Notes: generated from the sequence alone by a model not told the origin. Counted from the stretch's first letter, positions 3,918-20,716 are shown. The stretch: 32,298 nt of DNA from Bacteroidetes bacterium MED-G20 (GCA_002457645.1 NTKH01000008.1:1-32298); one strand, 5' to 3'. Numbers and translations are program-made.

Positions 3918-4932
3918 ATGCCCATACTTTTGTTCCTTCAGAGCAGTTTTTACATATTTCAATCTGACTTCTGTCTGAAAAAATTTGATTTCTAAAAGAA
4001 TTATAACTTTTACTTCTCCATATTTCAGAAAATTTATTTTTTTTAACATCTCCCAAAGTATGCTTAGCATCTTTATCAAAACAACAAGGAACAATTCCTC
4101 CGTTTACAGTAATAACTGCACTACTCCACATTCTCCAACAATGATTACTCAATTTATTTTTTAGTTTGTATTGTCCATTTAAAGTTTTTATATATCGAGA
4201 ATATTTATCATTTTCGGGTATTAACTCATTGCCATTTTTAAAATTATAAAATTGAGCTGTTTTAATTCTTAATTCATTTACACCAATTTCTGAAGCTAAT
4301 GTCTTCATTTGATCAATCAAATGTTCATTAGTCTTTACTACTAAAAATTGATATATTATATGAGGATAATTACTATTTAATTTTTTTTTCCATCTGAGTA
4401 TATTTTTAGTTCCTTCAATAACCTTTTCAAAGCGACCATTTTTTCTATATACTTCATAAGTTTCTTGGTTATTTCCATCTATTGAAATGATTAGTCTTTT
4501 TAAACCAGATTCAATAGTTTTTTTACAATTTTCATCATTTAAAAAATGACCATTTGTGGAAGTGGCACAAAAAATTTTTTTTGAATTTGCATAAGACACA
4601 AAATCAAAGAAATGAGGGTTTATATATGGTTCACCTTGAAAATAATAATTAATGTATGTTAAGTTACCTGATAATTCATCTACTATTTTTTTATTTAACG
4701 AAGTAGATAAATTTCCAGTTTTTCTTGTGAATTGTTTAAGTCCACTTGGACATTCAGGACAACCTAAATTACATGCTGTTGTAGGTTCAATACTTAGAGC
4801 CATTGGTAACCCATAAATTTTTGAAGATTTAGAGGTTTTTGAGATTAAAAAACTAACATATAATTTTAAGAAATTATAAGTTTTTCTCAAAGAAAAAAAC
4901 TGAATTAGAGCTAATATTTCTGTCTTGTTCAT
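3916..4932 (-). CDS. Radical SAM/SPASM domain protein
   Basis: This 338-residue protein has the radical SAM signature CNLGCPEC with cluster cysteines at 54, 58 and 61, preceded by the strand SIEPTTA. Further SAM-domain features are YFQGEPYINP near residue 100 and TSTNGHFL near 126. The C-terminal SPASM-like region carries Cys265 (HCW), Cys283-Cys284 (CCFD), and Cys327 and Cys330 (CKNC), enough for one or more auxiliary Fe-S clusters. SPASM enzymes modify peptides, proteins or other large substrates. The substrate is unknown, no obvious precursor peptide is adjacent, and there are no membrane segments. It is divergent from the MMPL-type gene and convergent with the acidic lipoprotein. Confidence 0.9.
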   Translation of the reverse strand: MNKTEILALIQFFSLRKTYNFLKLYVSFLISKTSKSSKIYGLPMALSIEPTTACNLGCPECPSGLKQFTRKTGNLSTSLNKKIVDELSGNLTYINYYFQGEPYINPHFFDFVSYANSKKIFCATSTNGHFLNDENCKKTIESGLKRLIISIDGNNQETYEVYRKNGRFEKVIEGTKNILRWKKKLNSNYPHIIYQFLVVKTNEHLIDQMKTLASEIGVNELRIKTAQFYNFKNGNELIPENDKYSRYIKTLNGQYKLKNKLSNHCWRMWSSAVITVNGGIVPCCFDKDAKHTLGDVKKNKFSEIWRSKSYNSFRNQIFSDRSQIEICKNCSEGTKVWA

Positions 4933-14516: not shown

Positions 14517-15773
14517 TCATTCAGTTATTCGAATATTATCAACTTCCCATGTCGCTCCATCTGAAATAGTTCCCGTGTATTTATATGCAATTGCCACAGA
14601 GCTAGCAATAAATTGCGTAAGGTCAGTATTCCCACTAGGAACTAAGGTCCAGTCAAAGTTGTCAGTATCCCAATTGGGAACATAGTTAGTTAAATCAAAC
14701 CACGTTCCTTGAACATCTGGATTACTAACTCCATCATAATTAGAAGAAATATAAAGTTCTAATTGTGGTCCTCCATATCTAGTAACATTATCAAAGACTA
14801 AGTAAGGAGAGGTAGCACTACTTAAATCAATATTTGGAGAAACTAACCAGCTTTCACAAGCATAGTTACTGCTATTTGAATAGTTACTTGCTTTAGCAAT
14901 AGTTCCAAAAAGAATTTCCCACTCACCAATATTTGGGTTGGTACCACTCCAAAAAGTTTTCCACCCACCGGAAGTTAAAGAACCATCATCAAAGTCTTTA
15001 TATAAATAATCTCCAATTCCACCTGTTCCACCTCCCCCGGAGTTACATCTGATAGAATCCAGCATAACCTCATTAATATCTCTAATAACAAATTGTTTTT
15101 CAGAATTATATATAGTAAAAATTCCAACTATTGATCCATTTCCAGAAGGTAAAGTATCATCTGCAAAATTGGCATAACCGCTTGTCCTTACCGAAACTGT
15201 ATTTCCATTACAATCAGAAAGTAGTCTGGAACCTGTACTAAGGTTAACTGCATCAGCATAGGTCATACCCATTTCAGAAAATTCTACATCATTTAATTTC
15301 ACCAATCTACTTTGGTCTTCACTTAAACTTAATTGAGCAATAGTAGCTTCATATGGAACGATGAACCTCTCTGTTGCAATTTTTACTACTTGTTGATCTA
15401 CATCAACATTTTCTAGTTGTATAAGTTCGCCATACTCACTCATAGTTATACCCTGAATATTTATTCTAATACTATCACCAATATAAAGACCTCCAGAGGC
15501 TTTTAATTTTAGCTTAATAGCTCCACTTAAGTCTTGCATAAAAACTTCTTTATAAAAGTTTCCATTAGTTTCCTCACAAGTTATATTCCCAAAAATACTA
15601 TAGTTGCTATCTATGACAGTTGCAGATCCTGTAAACATGTCTTTTAAATCACTTATTGAAATAATATTACCAATTGGGACCTCATTAATTGGTGGGTTAT
15701 CATAAGTTTTATTACAAGAATAAAATAAGCAAATGATAAAGAATATTTTGATAGTGTTTTTGATTTTTCTCAT
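14517..15773 (-). CDS. DUF5689-type surface lipoprotein with C-terminal choice-of-anchor J-like domain
   Basis: This 418-residue protein has a lipoprotein signal ending FYSC, with lipidated Cys20. Residues ~38-243 resemble the DUF5689 family: two OB-fold-like halves, with YSIFGNITCEETNGNFYKEVFMQD early and EKQFVIRDINEVML at the end. A Gly-rich linker (about 244-253) joins a second beta-rich domain (~255-418) like the choice-of-anchor J/DUF5017 group: LYKDFDDGSL, ESWLVSPNIDLSSA, WEVDNIRI. It starts 1 nt after the TonB-receptor stop, so the two are surely co-translated. By position it replaces a SusD-type binding lipoprotein. A binding role for nucleic acid is inferred, not shown. Confidence 0.82.
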   Translation of the reverse strand: MRKIKNTIKIFFIICLFYSCNKTYDNPPINEVPIGNIISISDLKDMFTGSATVIDSNYSIFGNITCEETNGNFYKEVFMQDLSGAIKLKLKASGGLYIGDSIRINIQGITMSEYGELIQLENVDVDQQVVKIATERFIVPYEATIAQLSLSEDQSRLVKLNDVEFSEMGMTYADAVNLSTGSRLLSDCNGNTVSVRTSGYANFADDTLPSGNGSIVGIFTIYNSEKQFVIRDINEVMLDSIRCNSGGGGTGGIGDYLYKDFDDGSLTSGGWKTFWSGTNPNIGEWEILFGTIAKASNYSNSSNYACESWLVSPNIDLSSATSPYLVFDNVTRYGGPQLELYISSNYDGVSNPDVQGTWFDLTNYVPNWDTDNFDWTLVPSGNTDLTQFIASSVAIAYKYTGTISDGATWEVDNIRITE

Positions 15774-15774
15774 T

Positions 15775-18378
15775 TTAATATAAATAACTGATCATTAAAA
15801 AATAGGTTCTTCCATACATATAACCATATTTGTTCGGGAACCTTTGAATATTAGAGGCATCATATCTAAGTTGTTCATATCCGCCAGTTTTAAAAGAAAT
15901 ATTATCTAAGAGGTTGTTGATGTTTAATCCTAACCTCAAGTAACTATTGTTTCTATAAATCTTCCAGCTTTTACCACAGAATAGATTGACTGCATTGCCG
16001 TTATTAAGTTTAGTTTGGTCTATTATTTCATTAATATAGGGGAGTCCATCTGCGTAACCTGAAATAGCTTCAGAAGTTCTTCTATCAGGGTTAGGAGATA
16101 AATAAATATCTGCAAAATAATTGAAATTAATTCCAGCATACCAGTATTTTGGAGCATTGTATTTCAAACCAACAGAAGCGGCCTGCTGAGGCATTCCACC
16201 TATTTTAAAGTTTTTTAGATAAACAATTTTATCTAGTGCAATAATTTCTTGAGAATTATCTCTTGTTATAGTAGCAACTGGTCTAGAAATATATAAATAA
16301 TCACCTATTGTAAAAGCTCCTGTTAATTGCACAGTTGAAGTAATATTACTTTCAAAACCGAGCTCAATTCCCATGAAAAGCTGATCAACATTAGTCATCA
16401 TATAATTTACAAATGTTCTGTATTCATCATGATAAAAAGATCTTGCCCAGGTTTGATTATTAATCTGTGTATAAAATCCAGTTAACCTTGCTTTTAAAAA
16501 AGGGAGACGAACATTATAATTAAGATCTCCTGAAATAATTTCCGTAGATTTTAAGTTAGGTACTAACTGGTCTCTTGTTCTAGGAGAAACATAAGCATTT
16601 CTTACATAGGGAGCTTCAGTTTTATACATTCCGTTAAATGATAATAAATGTCTGCCAGTTATTTTGTATAAAAAACCAAACTTCAAGCCATAATTGATAA
16701 AAGTTTGTTTTTCAGAATTACCTAATGATTGATTAGGGAATCTACCATTTTGCATTTTTCCATTTCTCCAAAAAGTAGTATTAGATAAATTAATTCCGAT
16801 AAAAGATTCTATTCTTTTCTTATTGTAACTATAAGTGCTAAATACTTCATTTTTATTGACATGTATATCATAATTGTATCCAAAAATATCTCCTACTTTA
16901 ATTATATTATTGATGTTTTGTAGATCATTTTGTGCTTGTGTAGGGTCGTCAAAGTCTCTTAGCGCAAATTGATCAATATCTACCCAATAATCGCCTCCCA
17001 ATAAGTCATTCATCAGTCTAAAATTCTTGCTTTTATAATTACTAATGCTTAGACCAAAATTTAATCCACTATTTTCGTTAATGATTAACTTTCCAAAACT
17101 GTTAAATCCATAATGTCGGGGGTCTAATCTGTATTCCTCAACAATATATTTTGACCTTCTTGCAGTTAAAGAGTTCACTAAGTCTCCATTTTCGTCAATG
17201 GTTCCATTCTCAATATTATTTTGTGTATATAAATTATTGTAATTGGCATTATACATTAAATCCCAGTTAAGTTGAGTTATGTTAGGATCACTTTCCTGCC
17301 AACCTTGCAAAATTTGATTGTATTCATTTTGATTTTCAATGACTTGATTACCTGATAAACTGCCTTGATTATTTACATAATAACTTGGTAAATATTTATA
17401 GTAATCGGGTCTTGGATCATTAGCATTGAACCAATTTAAATTGGAATTGGCAGTTCTTCCAATTATGGCATATAAATTAGACTGAATATTTAGCTTGTCA
17501 GAAATTTTCCAATAATGTCCTAATGTCATATATGGCTTATGATTGTCTCTATTTCTTGCATTTCTTTTTTTCTTAGTTCCATCGCTTTGTGTTTGGTATC
17601 CCCAGTAAGGATTATAAAAATTCTCGCCTGTTAAGTCATAGGCTTCTTGTAAAGCAATACCTTGCCTCCCCTGTACTGTTGGTGAACCAAACCCCATTAA
17701 ATTCAAAGTATGTTTTCTATTGACTTTTTTCTCAATGGATAAAAGGTAACTTCCAGCGCTGTAGTATGTTCCAGGAACATAACCTTCATCTGACCATCTA
17801 GAAGATCCACTGATTAAAAAGCCCCATCCTTTATTACTTAGTCCAGTATTGTAGGTGTACATAGCCCTGTTTCTGTAAGATCTATTTGTTGAAGCATATG
17901 ATATTCTTCCCCCGGTTTTTTTTTCTGAAGGAAGAGCAGAAATAAAAGAATAAGCTCCAACACTTCCAAAAGTAGCAGCAGAATTAGAAATTCCAAAGCT
18001 TGTCTCGGGGTATCTTGTTACATCATTTAATCCTCCCCAATAACTCCAAATAGTCCATCCATTTTCCGGATCATTAACAGGAATTCCATTAATAAATAGT
18101 CTTGTGTTTTCTGAACTATATCCTCTCAATCTATATCTTGCAGCACTAAAATTAAAACCAGCCTGATTGACATAAACGTCTCTAGACGATTGAAGTAATC
18201 CACTAATATCTTGAGATTGTAATTCATTGTCAAGAAGATCAACTGTTGTTGTGAATACTGGAATGATATTATCTACACTGTCAGTCGCAAATGTAGAGTC
18301 AGTCTGCGAATTAACATCCAGTGTTAAAATGAAGAAAATGGTATAAATAGCTAAAGACTTTATGCAATTAACAATCAT
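15775..18378 (-). CDS. TonB-dependent outer-membrane receptor
   Basis: This 867-residue protein has a signal peptide (cleavage near VNSQ, ~25). A TonB-box-like stretch (IPVFTTTV, ~39-46) is followed by a plug domain: LLQSSRDVYVNQAGFNFSAA, then YRLRGYSSENTRLFINGIPV, ending near residue 155. A long beta-barrel finishes with aromatic YFLMISYLY. There is no N-terminal carboxypeptidase-regulatory-like domain of the SusC type, and no SusD follows; a DUF5689 lipoprotein does. Transport of nuclease products is suggested by the divergent nuclease genes. It reads from one half of the palindromic promoter at 18411-18432, giving a leader of roughly 40 nt. Confidence 0.92.
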   Translation of the reverse strand: MIVNCIKSLAIYTIFFILTLDVNSQTDSTFATDSVDNIIPVFTTTVDLLDNELQSQDISGLLQSSRDVYVNQAGFNFSAARYRLRGYSSENTRLFINGIPVNDPENGWTIWSYWGGLNDVTRYPETSFGISNSAATFGSVGAYSFISALPSEKKTGGRISYASTNRSYRNRAMYTYNTGLSNKGWGFLISGSSRWSDEGYVPGTYYSAGSYLLSIEKKVNRKHTLNLMGFGSPTVQGRQGIALQEAYDLTGENFYNPYWGYQTQSDGTKKKRNARNRDNHKPYMTLGHYWKISDKLNIQSNLYAIIGRTANSNLNWFNANDPRPDYYKYLPSYYVNNQGSLSGNQVIENQNEYNQILQGWQESDPNITQLNWDLMYNANYNNLYTQNNIENGTIDENGDLVNSLTARRSKYIVEEYRLDPRHYGFNSFGKLIINENSGLNFGLSISNYKSKNFRLMNDLLGGDYWVDIDQFALRDFDDPTQAQNDLQNINNIIKVGDIFGYNYDIHVNKNEVFSTYSYNKKRIESFIGINLSNTTFWRNGKMQNGRFPNQSLGNSEKQTFINYGLKFGFLYKITGRHLLSFNGMYKTEAPYVRNAYVSPRTRDQLVPNLKSTEIISGDLNYNVRLPFLKARLTGFYTQINNQTWARSFYHDEYRTFVNYMMTNVDQLFMGIELGFESNITSTVQLTGAFTIGDYLYISRPVATITRDNSQEIIALDKIVYLKNFKIGGMPQQAASVGLKYNAPKYWYAGINFNYFADIYLSPNPDRRTSEAISGYADGLPYINEIIDQTKLNNGNAVNLFCGKSWKIYRNNSYLRLGLNINNLLDNISFKTGGYEQLRYDASNIQRFPNKYGYMYGRTYFLMISYLY

Positions 18379-18410
18379 TTAATCTAAAATATTAAATATG
18401 AATTAAGTTG

Positions 18411-18432
18411 ATTACTTTTGCCCAAAAGTAAT
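18411..18432. promoter_or_regulatory. Symmetric bidirectional promoter palindrome
   Basis: Two perfect 10-nt arms, ATTACTTTTG (18411-18420) and CAAAAGTAAT (18423-18432), are separated by CC. Each arm contains TACTTTTG, an exact match to the Bacteroidota -7 core TAnnTTTG: plus strand at 18413-18420 towards the nucleases, minus strand at 18430-18423 towards the TonB receptor. Both directions give short leaders of about 25-40 nt. No clear -33 TTG is visible for either side, which would fit dependence on an activator, though -33 elements are weak in this group. Confidence 0.7.
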
Positions 18433-18449
18433 TTAAAAATACAGGTGAG

Positions 18450-19505
18450 TTGAAAGTCAGACTAATTTTATTATCATTCATTCTTTTTTCAAAGGTAATT
18501 CAATCGCAAGATAAAAAATCATTGGATTTAAATTTAGAATGTATAGCTTTTTACAATCTGGAAAATCTTTTCGATACCATTGTTGATCCTGATACCAATA
18601 AAATACTTCAGGAAGATTTTACCCCTTTTGGTCCCAAAAAATTCAACACCGAAAAATACCTACTTAAATTAAAAAATTTAGCATTTGTTTTAGATACTAT
18701 TGGTAAAGAAATAACTCCTTTAGGTCCTAGTATTATTGGAGTTTGTGAAATTGAAAATAAATTAGTTTTAGAAGATTTAGTTAGTCAAACTGCCATTGCT
18801 AATAAAAATTACCAAATTGTTCACCATGAAGGCCCTGATGCAAGAGGAATAGATTGTGCTTTACTATATGATCCTTTACATTTTAAAGTTACTTCCAGTA
18901 AATCTGTTAAATTTTCCATCCCAGGTAATGAAAGATTTAGATCTAGAGATCAATTGGTTGTTTCTGGGGAACTACTAGGCGAAAAAATTCATATAATAGT
19001 TATTCATTGGCCATCTAGAAGAGGGGGAGAATCTAAAAGTAGGCCTAAGCGAATTGCAGCTGCAAAGTTATCAAAGTCCATTGTAGACTCTTTACAACAA
19101 ATCAACAAAAAAGCAAAAGTTATTATTATGGGGGACTTTAATGATGACCCAATATCTCCAAGTATTGCAGACTTTTTAAAAGCTAGTGGATCTACATTTC
19201 TAAAAAATAACCAAATGCATAATACTATGTACGATCACTACAAAAATGGAATTGGTACTTTAGCTTACAGAGACCAATGGAATTTATTTGATCAATTTAT
19301 TATTACTCCTTCATTTATTGATAACGAAAAAAATTACGATGATTTTACTTTTTATAAATCAGTAGTTTACAATAAATCTTTTTTAAAAAATCAAAAAGGT
19401 AATTATAAAGGATATCCTTTTAGGACTTATGGTGGATCTAATTTTTTGGGAGGTTACAGTGACCATTTTCCGGTGTATATGTTTTTAGTAAGAAAGGCTT
19501 TATGA
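18450..19505 (+). CDS. Exported endonuclease/exonuclease/phosphatase-family protein
   Basis: This 351-residue protein uses a TTG start: an in-frame TAA lies at 18429, no ATG or GTG lies between, and TTG gives a complete signal peptide (MKVRLILLSFILFSKVIQSQ). The EEP domain is complete: FYNLENLFD (Asn36), GVCEIEN (metal Glu100), His186 in IHWPSRRGG, GDFNDDP (Asp229, Asn231), Asp281 in WNLFDQF, and the final SDHFPV (Asp338, His339). Family members cut DNA, RNA or other phosphodiesters with Mg. It has no sorting tail, so it may be periplasmic. It overlaps the next gene by ATGA. Confidence 0.92.
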   Translation: MKVRLILLSFILFSKVIQSQDKKSLDLNLECIAFYNLENLFDTIVDPDTNKILQEDFTPFGPKKFNTEKYLLKLKNLAFVLDTIGKEITPLGPSIIGVCEIENKLVLEDLVSQTAIANKNYQIVHHEGPDARGIDCALLYDPLHFKVTSSKSVKFSIPGNERFRSRDQLVVSGELLGEKIHIIVIHWPSRRGGESKSRPKRIAAAKLSKSIVDSLQQINKKAKVIIMGDFNDDPISPSIADFLKASGSTFLKNNQMHNTMYDHYKNGIGTLAYRDQWNLFDQFIITPSFIDNEKNYDDFTFYKSVVYNKSFLKNQKGNYKGYPFRTYGGSNFLGGYSDHFPVYMFLVRKAL

Positions 19506-20716
19506 AGTCATTAATATTTATTTTTTTTAACTTTTTATTCTTCTCTGGAATTTCTCAAAATGAGATAAAGGTTACTTATTATAATTTATTAAATTTCCCT
19601 TCTTCTCAACCCAGCAGAACAGATACTTTAAAAAAAATTCTCGATTTCATACAACCCGATATTTTTGTAGTGAATGAATTAACTTCTTTTAATGGAGGAG
19701 CGCTAATAAAGAACAATGTCTTGAATGCTGGTGGATCAAATAATTATCAAAGTGCATTGTTTTTTGATGGTCCGGATACTGATAATCTACTTTTCTACAA
19801 CCAAAATAAAATGGGATTATATTCTCAACAACAAATCCCAACACAACTTAGAGATATCAGTGAATACATATTGTATTATAAACCATTCGCGAATCAAGGA
19901 GATACCAATCTAATTTATTTTTATTCAATTCATTTAAAAGCAGGCAGTAGTCAATCAAATGAAGAACTTAGAAGGCAAGAAGCTGAAACTTTCAAGCAAT
20001 TTCTAATTAATAATAATAGAAATAATAATTTATTTGTTGGAGGGGACTTCAACTTTTATGATCATTTAGAACCAGCTTGTCAAGAAATATTATTTGGCCA
20101 GTCCTTGGATTTAGTAGACCCGATTAATCAAATGGCAAGTTGGCATAATAATAGTTCATACTCTAATATTCACACTCAAAGTACAAGATCTGCAACAGGT
20201 GGTTTTGCTGGCGGTGCATATGGAGGAATGGATGATAGATTTGATATTATCTTCACTTCAAATGACGTTATAACTGGTAATTCAGGCATTCAATACATAC
20301 CAGGTTCTTATATTGCAGATGGTCAAGATGGTAATCATTTCAATCAAGCTATCAATTCGGGTACCAATAGCCAAGTTACTCAGGAAATTGCCAATGCTTT
20401 ATTTTATATGAGCGATCACTTACCAGTTTCTCTATCTTTTAATATTTCTGAGCCTTCATCAGCTCAAGGTTTAATTAATAATCAGACAGCAATTAATTTT
20501 TATCAAAATAATAATACTTTATTATTAAACTTTAATGAATATTCAAAATTTAATATTTCAATTTATGATATGAGCGGAAGGGTACTTTTTAATAAAAATT
20601 TGAAAAATGAAAATCAAATAGAAATCAATTTAGAATCATTTGATGAAGGGATATATATCGCTAATTGTAATATCAATGGCAACCAAATAAATTATAAATT
20701 CATTTTAAGTCATTAA
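19502..20716 (+). CDS. Secreted EEP-family nuclease with T9SS sorting domain
   Basis: This 404-residue protein has a signal peptide (1-18, ending GISQ). Its EEP catalytic domain contains VTYYNLLNFP, Glu59 in VVNELTS, His144 in YSIHLKAG, GGDFNFYD (Asp182, Asn184), Asp248 in DDRFDIIF, and SDHLPV (Asp305, His306). A C-terminal type A sorting domain follows (~325-404: ISIYDMSGRVLF, LESFDEGIYIANCN), marking secretion and probable surface attachment by the type IX system. It is co-translated with the upstream EEP gene through an ATGA overlap. The two enzymes share the fold but differ greatly in sequence, so they are not a recent duplication. The substrate is not proven. Confidence 0.92.
   Translation: MKSLIFIFFNFLFFSGISQNEIKVTYYNLLNFPSSQPSRTDTLKKILDFIQPDIFVVNELTSFNGGALIKNNVLNAGGSNNYQSALFFDGPDTDNLLFYNQNKMGLYSQQQIPTQLRDISEYILYYKPFANQGDTNLIYFYSIHLKAGSSQSNEELRRQEAETFKQFLINNNRNNNLFVGGDFNFYDHLEPACQEILFGQSLDLVDPINQMASWHNNSSYSNIHTQSTRSATGGFAGGAYGGMDDRFDIIFTSNDVITGNSGIQYIPGSYIADGQDGNHFNQAINSGTNSQVTQEIANALFYMSDHLPVSLSFNISEPSSAQGLINNQTAINFYQNNNTLLLNFNEYSKFNISIYDMSGRVLFNKNLKNENQIEINLESFDEGIYIANCNINGNQINYKFILSH

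Follow-up and report, generated by a model that had tools for sequence, protein, structure and literature searches.

In Riemerella anatipestifer, markerless deletion of either RA0C_RS04915 or RA0C_RS04920 reduces natural transformation below detection (PMC8459023). The first gene encodes an outer-membrane protein with a carboxypeptidase-like domain and the second a protein combining DUF5689 with DUF5017, and both are essential alongside ComEC, DprA, ComF, RecA, an HHH protein and a DUF1343 protein (PMC8459023). Mutants in tonBA and tonBB are also impaired in transformation, an effect that the authors of that study attribute to iron in the case of tonBB (PMC8383284). The Riemerella model published in 2021 names no protein for making single strands; RA0C_RS04910 appears there only as an upstream control for polarity, and the EEP gene is kept outside the system (PMC8459023). 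We found no RA0C_RS04910 mutant in that paper, nor did the Riemerella screen include one. In Flavobacterium columnare, a DUF5017 gene lies between the receptor and lipoprotein genes (PMC8459023), and the Flavobacterium loci that we inspected match this report. F. johnsoniae, reported with homologues of the pair, showed no competence under the conditions that were used (PMC8459023, PMC7965970), and the requirement of receptor and lipoprotein for transformation is published for Riemerella only. A second comparable system is PusCD, the phosphate utilization system of Flavobacterium, in which a TonB-dependent receptor and a surface lipoprotein are likewise combined with exported phosphodiesterases (PMC8115612).

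The window analyzed here, a stretch of 32,298 nucleotides from Bacteroidetes bacterium MED-G20, carries four exported-protein genes in two divergent pairs at 14517-20716, as delimited by open reading frame calls. On the minus strand, the gene of a TonB-dependent-type outer-membrane receptor (15775-18378, 867 aa) is followed, after a gap of 1 nt (15774), by the co-directional gene of a surface lipoprotein with DUF5689 and choice-of-anchor J domains (14517-15773, 418 aa), an arrangement that is kept in relatives. On the plus strand, the gene of EEP3, an exported PF19580 enzyme (18450-19505, 351 aa, TTG start), shares a 4-nt ATGA overlap (19502-19505) with that of EEP-T9SS, a second EEP-family enzyme ending in a T9SS type A sorting tail (19502-20716, 404 aa). 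A first-pass annotation made from the sequence had described precisely this layout, with two tight pairs, the 1-nt gap and the ATGA overlap, and all of it proved correct. We take the receptor and lipoprotein as counterparts of RA0C_RS04915 and RA0C_RS04920, respectively: the Riemerella pair comprises the same two families in the same order and strand relation, and EEP3 lies divergently upstream of it in a genome matched by gene order.

This genome, G534 (complete, 2,164,087 bases), shows the order RecA, four genes, ComEC, two genes, EEP3, receptor and DUF5689-DUF5017 protein. Its gene spacing equals that of the RA0C_RS locus tags 04870, 04895, 04915 and 04920, with EEP3 falling at 04910. Judged by gene order, G534 would thus correspond to Riemerella, and EEP3 would occupy the position of RA0C_RS04910. 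The G534 receptor matches PF13620 and shows no Plug match, and its DUF5689-DUF5017 protein scores above the cut-off of the NCBIfam model NF052645. Riemerella itself was absent by name from one scan of named genomes, which returned Chryseobacterium, Flavobacterium and others. We had also considered the first two Weeksellaceae loci as ComEC-linked and discarded the idea, as no ComEC is nearby and the large neighbor is Rho.

The window lipoprotein has a signal peptide ending in an SC lipobox and matches PF18942 (E 1.7e-46) and NF038128 (E 7.3e-9) in Pfam and NCBIfam, respectively. Its combination of DUF5689 with a choice-of-anchor J/DUF5017 part is the Riemerella-type architecture and is shared with G534. 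In contrast to the Riemerella lipoprotein, it stays under the 475-bit cut-off of NF052645 (lipo_M949_1556), with which it aligns almost full-length at 139 bits, and so falls outside that family. The window also differs from the Riemerella pair in its shorter receptor of 867 aa, which matches Plug (PF07715, E 8.4e-6) and gave no CarboxypepD_reg match, and in the addition of EEP-T9SS. Receptors of Flavobacteriaceae and Weeksellaceae carry CarboxypepD_reg and span about 905-990 aa as open frames. The AF2 model of the lipoprotein (pLDDT 80) shows two OB-like beta units in its N-terminal part and a C-terminal jelly roll resembling MAM and cleaved-adhesin (gingipain adhesin) domains (Z 14-15). A role of the N-terminal DUF5689 part as DNA binder, considered after a Foldseek match to the HIN-dsDNA complex 5z7d (rank 14, TM 0.24), was dropped as too weak, and sequence searches against solved structures gave no useful match. 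Many loci (for example L034:7436-8839 and L048:6543-7940) have an extra gene after the lipoprotein gene, encoding choice-of-anchor J/DUF5017 with a T9SS tail and an ExeM-like N-terminal match; this gene is absent from the window.

Between receptor and EEP3 lies a divergent intergenic region of 71 bp (18379-18449), in which two Bacteroidota-type -7 boxes (TACTTTTG) stand face to face. They form a perfect inverted repeat, TTACTTTTG-CC-CAAAAGTAA (18412-18431), with one -7-like box (TAnnTTTG) per direction; promoters arranged in this way would overlap, and use of one could preclude use of the other. The first-pass annotation had placed both pairs around one promoter; the shared gap is there, but a single promoter is too loose a description of two opposed boxes. 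In relatives, the corresponding gap frequently contains boxes of the form TAnnTTTG, but only 3/68 loci have them paired face to face, and we therefore rejected a conserved palindromic promoter.

EEP3 belongs clearly to PF19580 (Exo_endo_phos_3; E 1.5e-119, 399 bits, with the cut-off at 27), and EEP-T9SS matches PF03372 (E 4.6e-9), the Por_Secre_tail family PF18962 (E 4e-9) and the type A sorting domain TIGR04183 (E 7.7e-9, 35.4 bits against a cut-off of 23). Both retain the catalytic residues expected of them, as claimed earlier, and so do their relatives: N36, E100/E102, H186, D229/N231, D281 and S337-D338-H339 of EEP3 are invariant in 40 sequences, and N28, E59, H144, D182/N184, D248 and S304-D305-H306 of EEP-T9SS are conserved in 21. 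The sorting tail previously noticed on one of the enzymes is that of EEP-T9SS. EEP3 has a plain signal peptide, and no T9SS sorting domain was matched on the window protein in Pfam or NCBIfam. Beyond the SDH motif, its relatives have a median of 12 residues and never more than 21, and 134 of the 139 with a recognizable signal-like start lack a lipobox according to a crude regular expression. Together, these features predict a periplasmic location for EEP3, which departs from the initial picture, drawn by analogy with polysaccharide utilization loci, of two enzymes both cutting at the surface. That analogy lacks support in a further respect, as neither SusC nor SusD family members were matched in the window among the Pfam and NCBIfam results.

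The fold of EEP3 leaves its substrate unsettled. Its AF2 model (pLDDT 89) resembles TDP2 (Z 24.5) and DNase I (Z 22), and the Bacteroides mannosyl-6-phosphatase 4c1r ties with these DNA enzymes (Z 23.4), so we infer the substrate from genomic context. Like EEP3, the exported nucleases ExeM/NucH (NF033681) have an EEP fold, and EEP3 matches their model weakly; at 28.8 bits it scores far under the 300-bit cut-off and is not a member. The structural tie lends some weight to a different ligand, in that EEP-fold enzymes act on many substrates: the receptor could import a phosphorylated glycan, a lipid headgroup or another phosphodiester, with the EEP enzymes as its phosphatases or phosphodiesterases, and transformation would be lost in Riemerella indirectly, for example via the envelope. 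In line with this, Riemerella M949_1556, the namesake of the NCBIfam lipoprotein model, has been linked in a report to LPS synthesis and antigenicity. We nevertheless consider such a ligand distinctly unlikely, as the clean Riemerella deletions gave a complete loss of transformation (PMC8459023) and as relatives repeatedly tie DUF5689 to nucleases, as described below.

The first-pass annotation had proposed a conserved surface and export module and a search for its co-occurrence across related genomes, which we carried out. A DUF5689 search across 199 genomes of the window's order revealed two kinds of loci, A and B. Kind A comprises 47 genomes as we read the table; scores of its DUF5689 protein range from 98 to 178 bits, and in the 44 intact loci examined the receptor lies directly upstream of it. 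EEP3 was divergent and adjacent at all 38 order-level loci with a visible upstream side, the single entry counted against adjacency being the second fragment of a split receptor (L031). The same held for 29/39 loci in a class-wide sample and for 77/78 loci in named Flavobacteriaceae and Weeksellaceae; NF052645 was matched in 106/110 Weeksellaceae genomes. EEP-T9SS is less widespread, with 21 order-level and five class-level loci. The module genes thus co-occur far beyond chance, and the proposed four-gene module is real and conserved across relatives. The first-pass annotation had named a lack of conserved co-occurrence as a refuting outcome, and this outcome did not arise.

In a tree built from PF19580 proteins, 96 linked to the module and 20 not, a single branch with a support of 100 divides the two sets; the unlinked set consists of lower-scoring matches from the same order, a choice that favors separation somewhat. 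Complementarily, we ran an EEP3 profile search in 28 genomes, among them 12 with receptor A, eight of which had been picked because EEP3 was not divergently adjacent. Module-type EEP3 (at least 413 bits) was present in 12/12 receptor-A genomes, whereas 14/14 genomes without receptor A held other PF19580 proteins only (310 bits or less). Module-type EEP3 without receptor A occurs in two more genomes, G014, judged by reading its locus, and G102, judged by its coordinates alone. These sequence comparisons identify EEP3 as a dedicated partner of the receptor pair across the class. Shared regulation alone can keep divergent neighbors together, and the EEP enzymes might merely occupy the same intergenic region with no functional tie to the receptor. 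We regard this as very improbable, as module-type EEP3 persists in 8/8 receptor-A genomes in which it is not adjacent, is absent from 14/14 genomes lacking the receptor, and its linked representatives form their own group in the tree.

The locus of G014 (L252:6056-13713) is informative about the substrate. Here, a class B receptor, a DUF5689-Endonuclease I-T9SS protein, EEP3 and a second EEP enzyme are encoded co-directionally, and the flanks (alpha/beta hydrolase, pdxJ, CBS and NAD kinase) are those of kind A relatives; the receptor pair has been swapped in place and both EEP genes have been retained. Elsewhere in the order, a different receptor is immediately followed at class B loci (L075:6500-11570, L076:3850-8925, L079:4382-9409 and L080:6131-11550) by a DUF5689 fusion protein, in which the partner is either Endonuclease I or a PLD/NucT-like nuclease and which also carries a T9SS tail. 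These pairs resemble the window in that the protein following the receptor contains DUF5689 and has a link to the cleavage of nucleic acids; they differ in that DUF5689 is fused to the nuclease and the T9SS tail, and in having no divergent EEP3. The swap in G014 and the repeated fusions point to nucleic acid, on which the four-gene module probably acts, and argue against another ligand. No genome of the 199 clearly held both classes, compared with about 20 expected (hypergeometric 1.4e-14), a mutual exclusion that is suggestive only, since the test ignores shared ancestry and class B detection is weak.

What the nucleic acid is used for is a separate question. The first-pass annotation had seen a nutrient or phosphate scavenging system, comparable to a polysaccharide utilization locus, in which extracellular nucleic acid is digested and oligonucleotides or nucleotides are imported as food. 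Exported nuclease-like enzymes next to a receptor and a surface lipoprotein would suit such a role, as would the parallel receptor and DUF5689-nuclease pairs. Phosphate-induced receptor systems of Flavobacterium have periplasmic phosphodiesterases, for which the authors propose scavenging of phosphodiesters including nucleic acids, and two extracellular nucleases are phosphate-induced as well (PMC8115612). PusCD, however, belongs to the SusC and SusD families, for which the window has no match, and searching the text of the F. johnsoniae phosphate study yielded no accession of the EEP3 or DUF5689 families and no PF18942 or PF03372 entry; the sole EEP entry, Fjoh_0074, is listed with a fold change of 1.15 (PMC8115612). 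In addition, Riemerella cannot be transformed without its counterparts of the receptor and lipoprotein genes (PMC8459023). We therefore rate feeding as the main role as unlikely, while treating nutrition as a serious rival; DNA uptake and nutrition may both hold. Fjoh_3841, an 'orphan' phosphate-induced receptor of F. johnsoniae, is listed with PF13620 as its sole Pfam family and in this respect looks like the Riemerella-type receptor (PMC8115612); if it is indeed that receptor, the nutritional role gains weight.

We favor, with moderate confidence, the interpretation that the locus encodes a module for taking up DNA across the outer membrane, like the one that serves natural transformation in Riemerella. 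Extracellular DNA would be held at the cell surface by the DUF5689/anchor-J lipoprotein; EEP-T9SS, exported by the T9SS, would shorten or free DNA there, and the TonB-driven receptor would pass it through the outer membrane. In the periplasm, EEP3 would nick or trim the incoming DNA, which could then be rendered single-stranded for ComEC, and imported DNA that is not recombined could be used as a nutrient. DNA as the substrate in the window's organism, as well as the nuclease activity and role of both EEP enzymes, is what we infer from this comparison. Competence genes are neutral on this point: ComEC, DprA and the HHH protein family are present in the same-genus genomes G029 and G045, and the window genome, which is 63% complete, yielded no ComEC. 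We rejected the co-occurrence of ComEC, DprA and the HHH (ComEA-like) protein as evidence, since all three are near-universal in the order, including genomes without either receptor, and thus lend no specific support to DNA uptake.

As EEP3 accompanies the receptor across the whole class, it is a candidate for a missing part of the uptake machine. We tentatively suggest, as a possibility that is itself rather doubtful, that a TonB-driven machine for DNA uptake, independent of a pilus, is spread across Bacteroidia and that EEP3 is its missing nuclease, acting in the periplasm beside the receptor to turn imported duplex DNA into a form acceptable to ComEC, with RA0C_RS04910 as the Riemerella counterpart of EEP3. 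The module had been put forward as under-described, which holds for the nuclease partners, for which there is no published phenotype, but not for the core pair, the phenotype of which has been published.

Overall, this analysis bears on the open question of how DNA crosses the outer membrane in Bacteroidota, which have no recognized uptake pilus, and provides, beside the receptor, a specific and class-wide conserved candidate for DNA processing in EEP3. Together, these findings suggest that gene exchange through DNA uptake is possibly widespread in environmental Bacteroidota.
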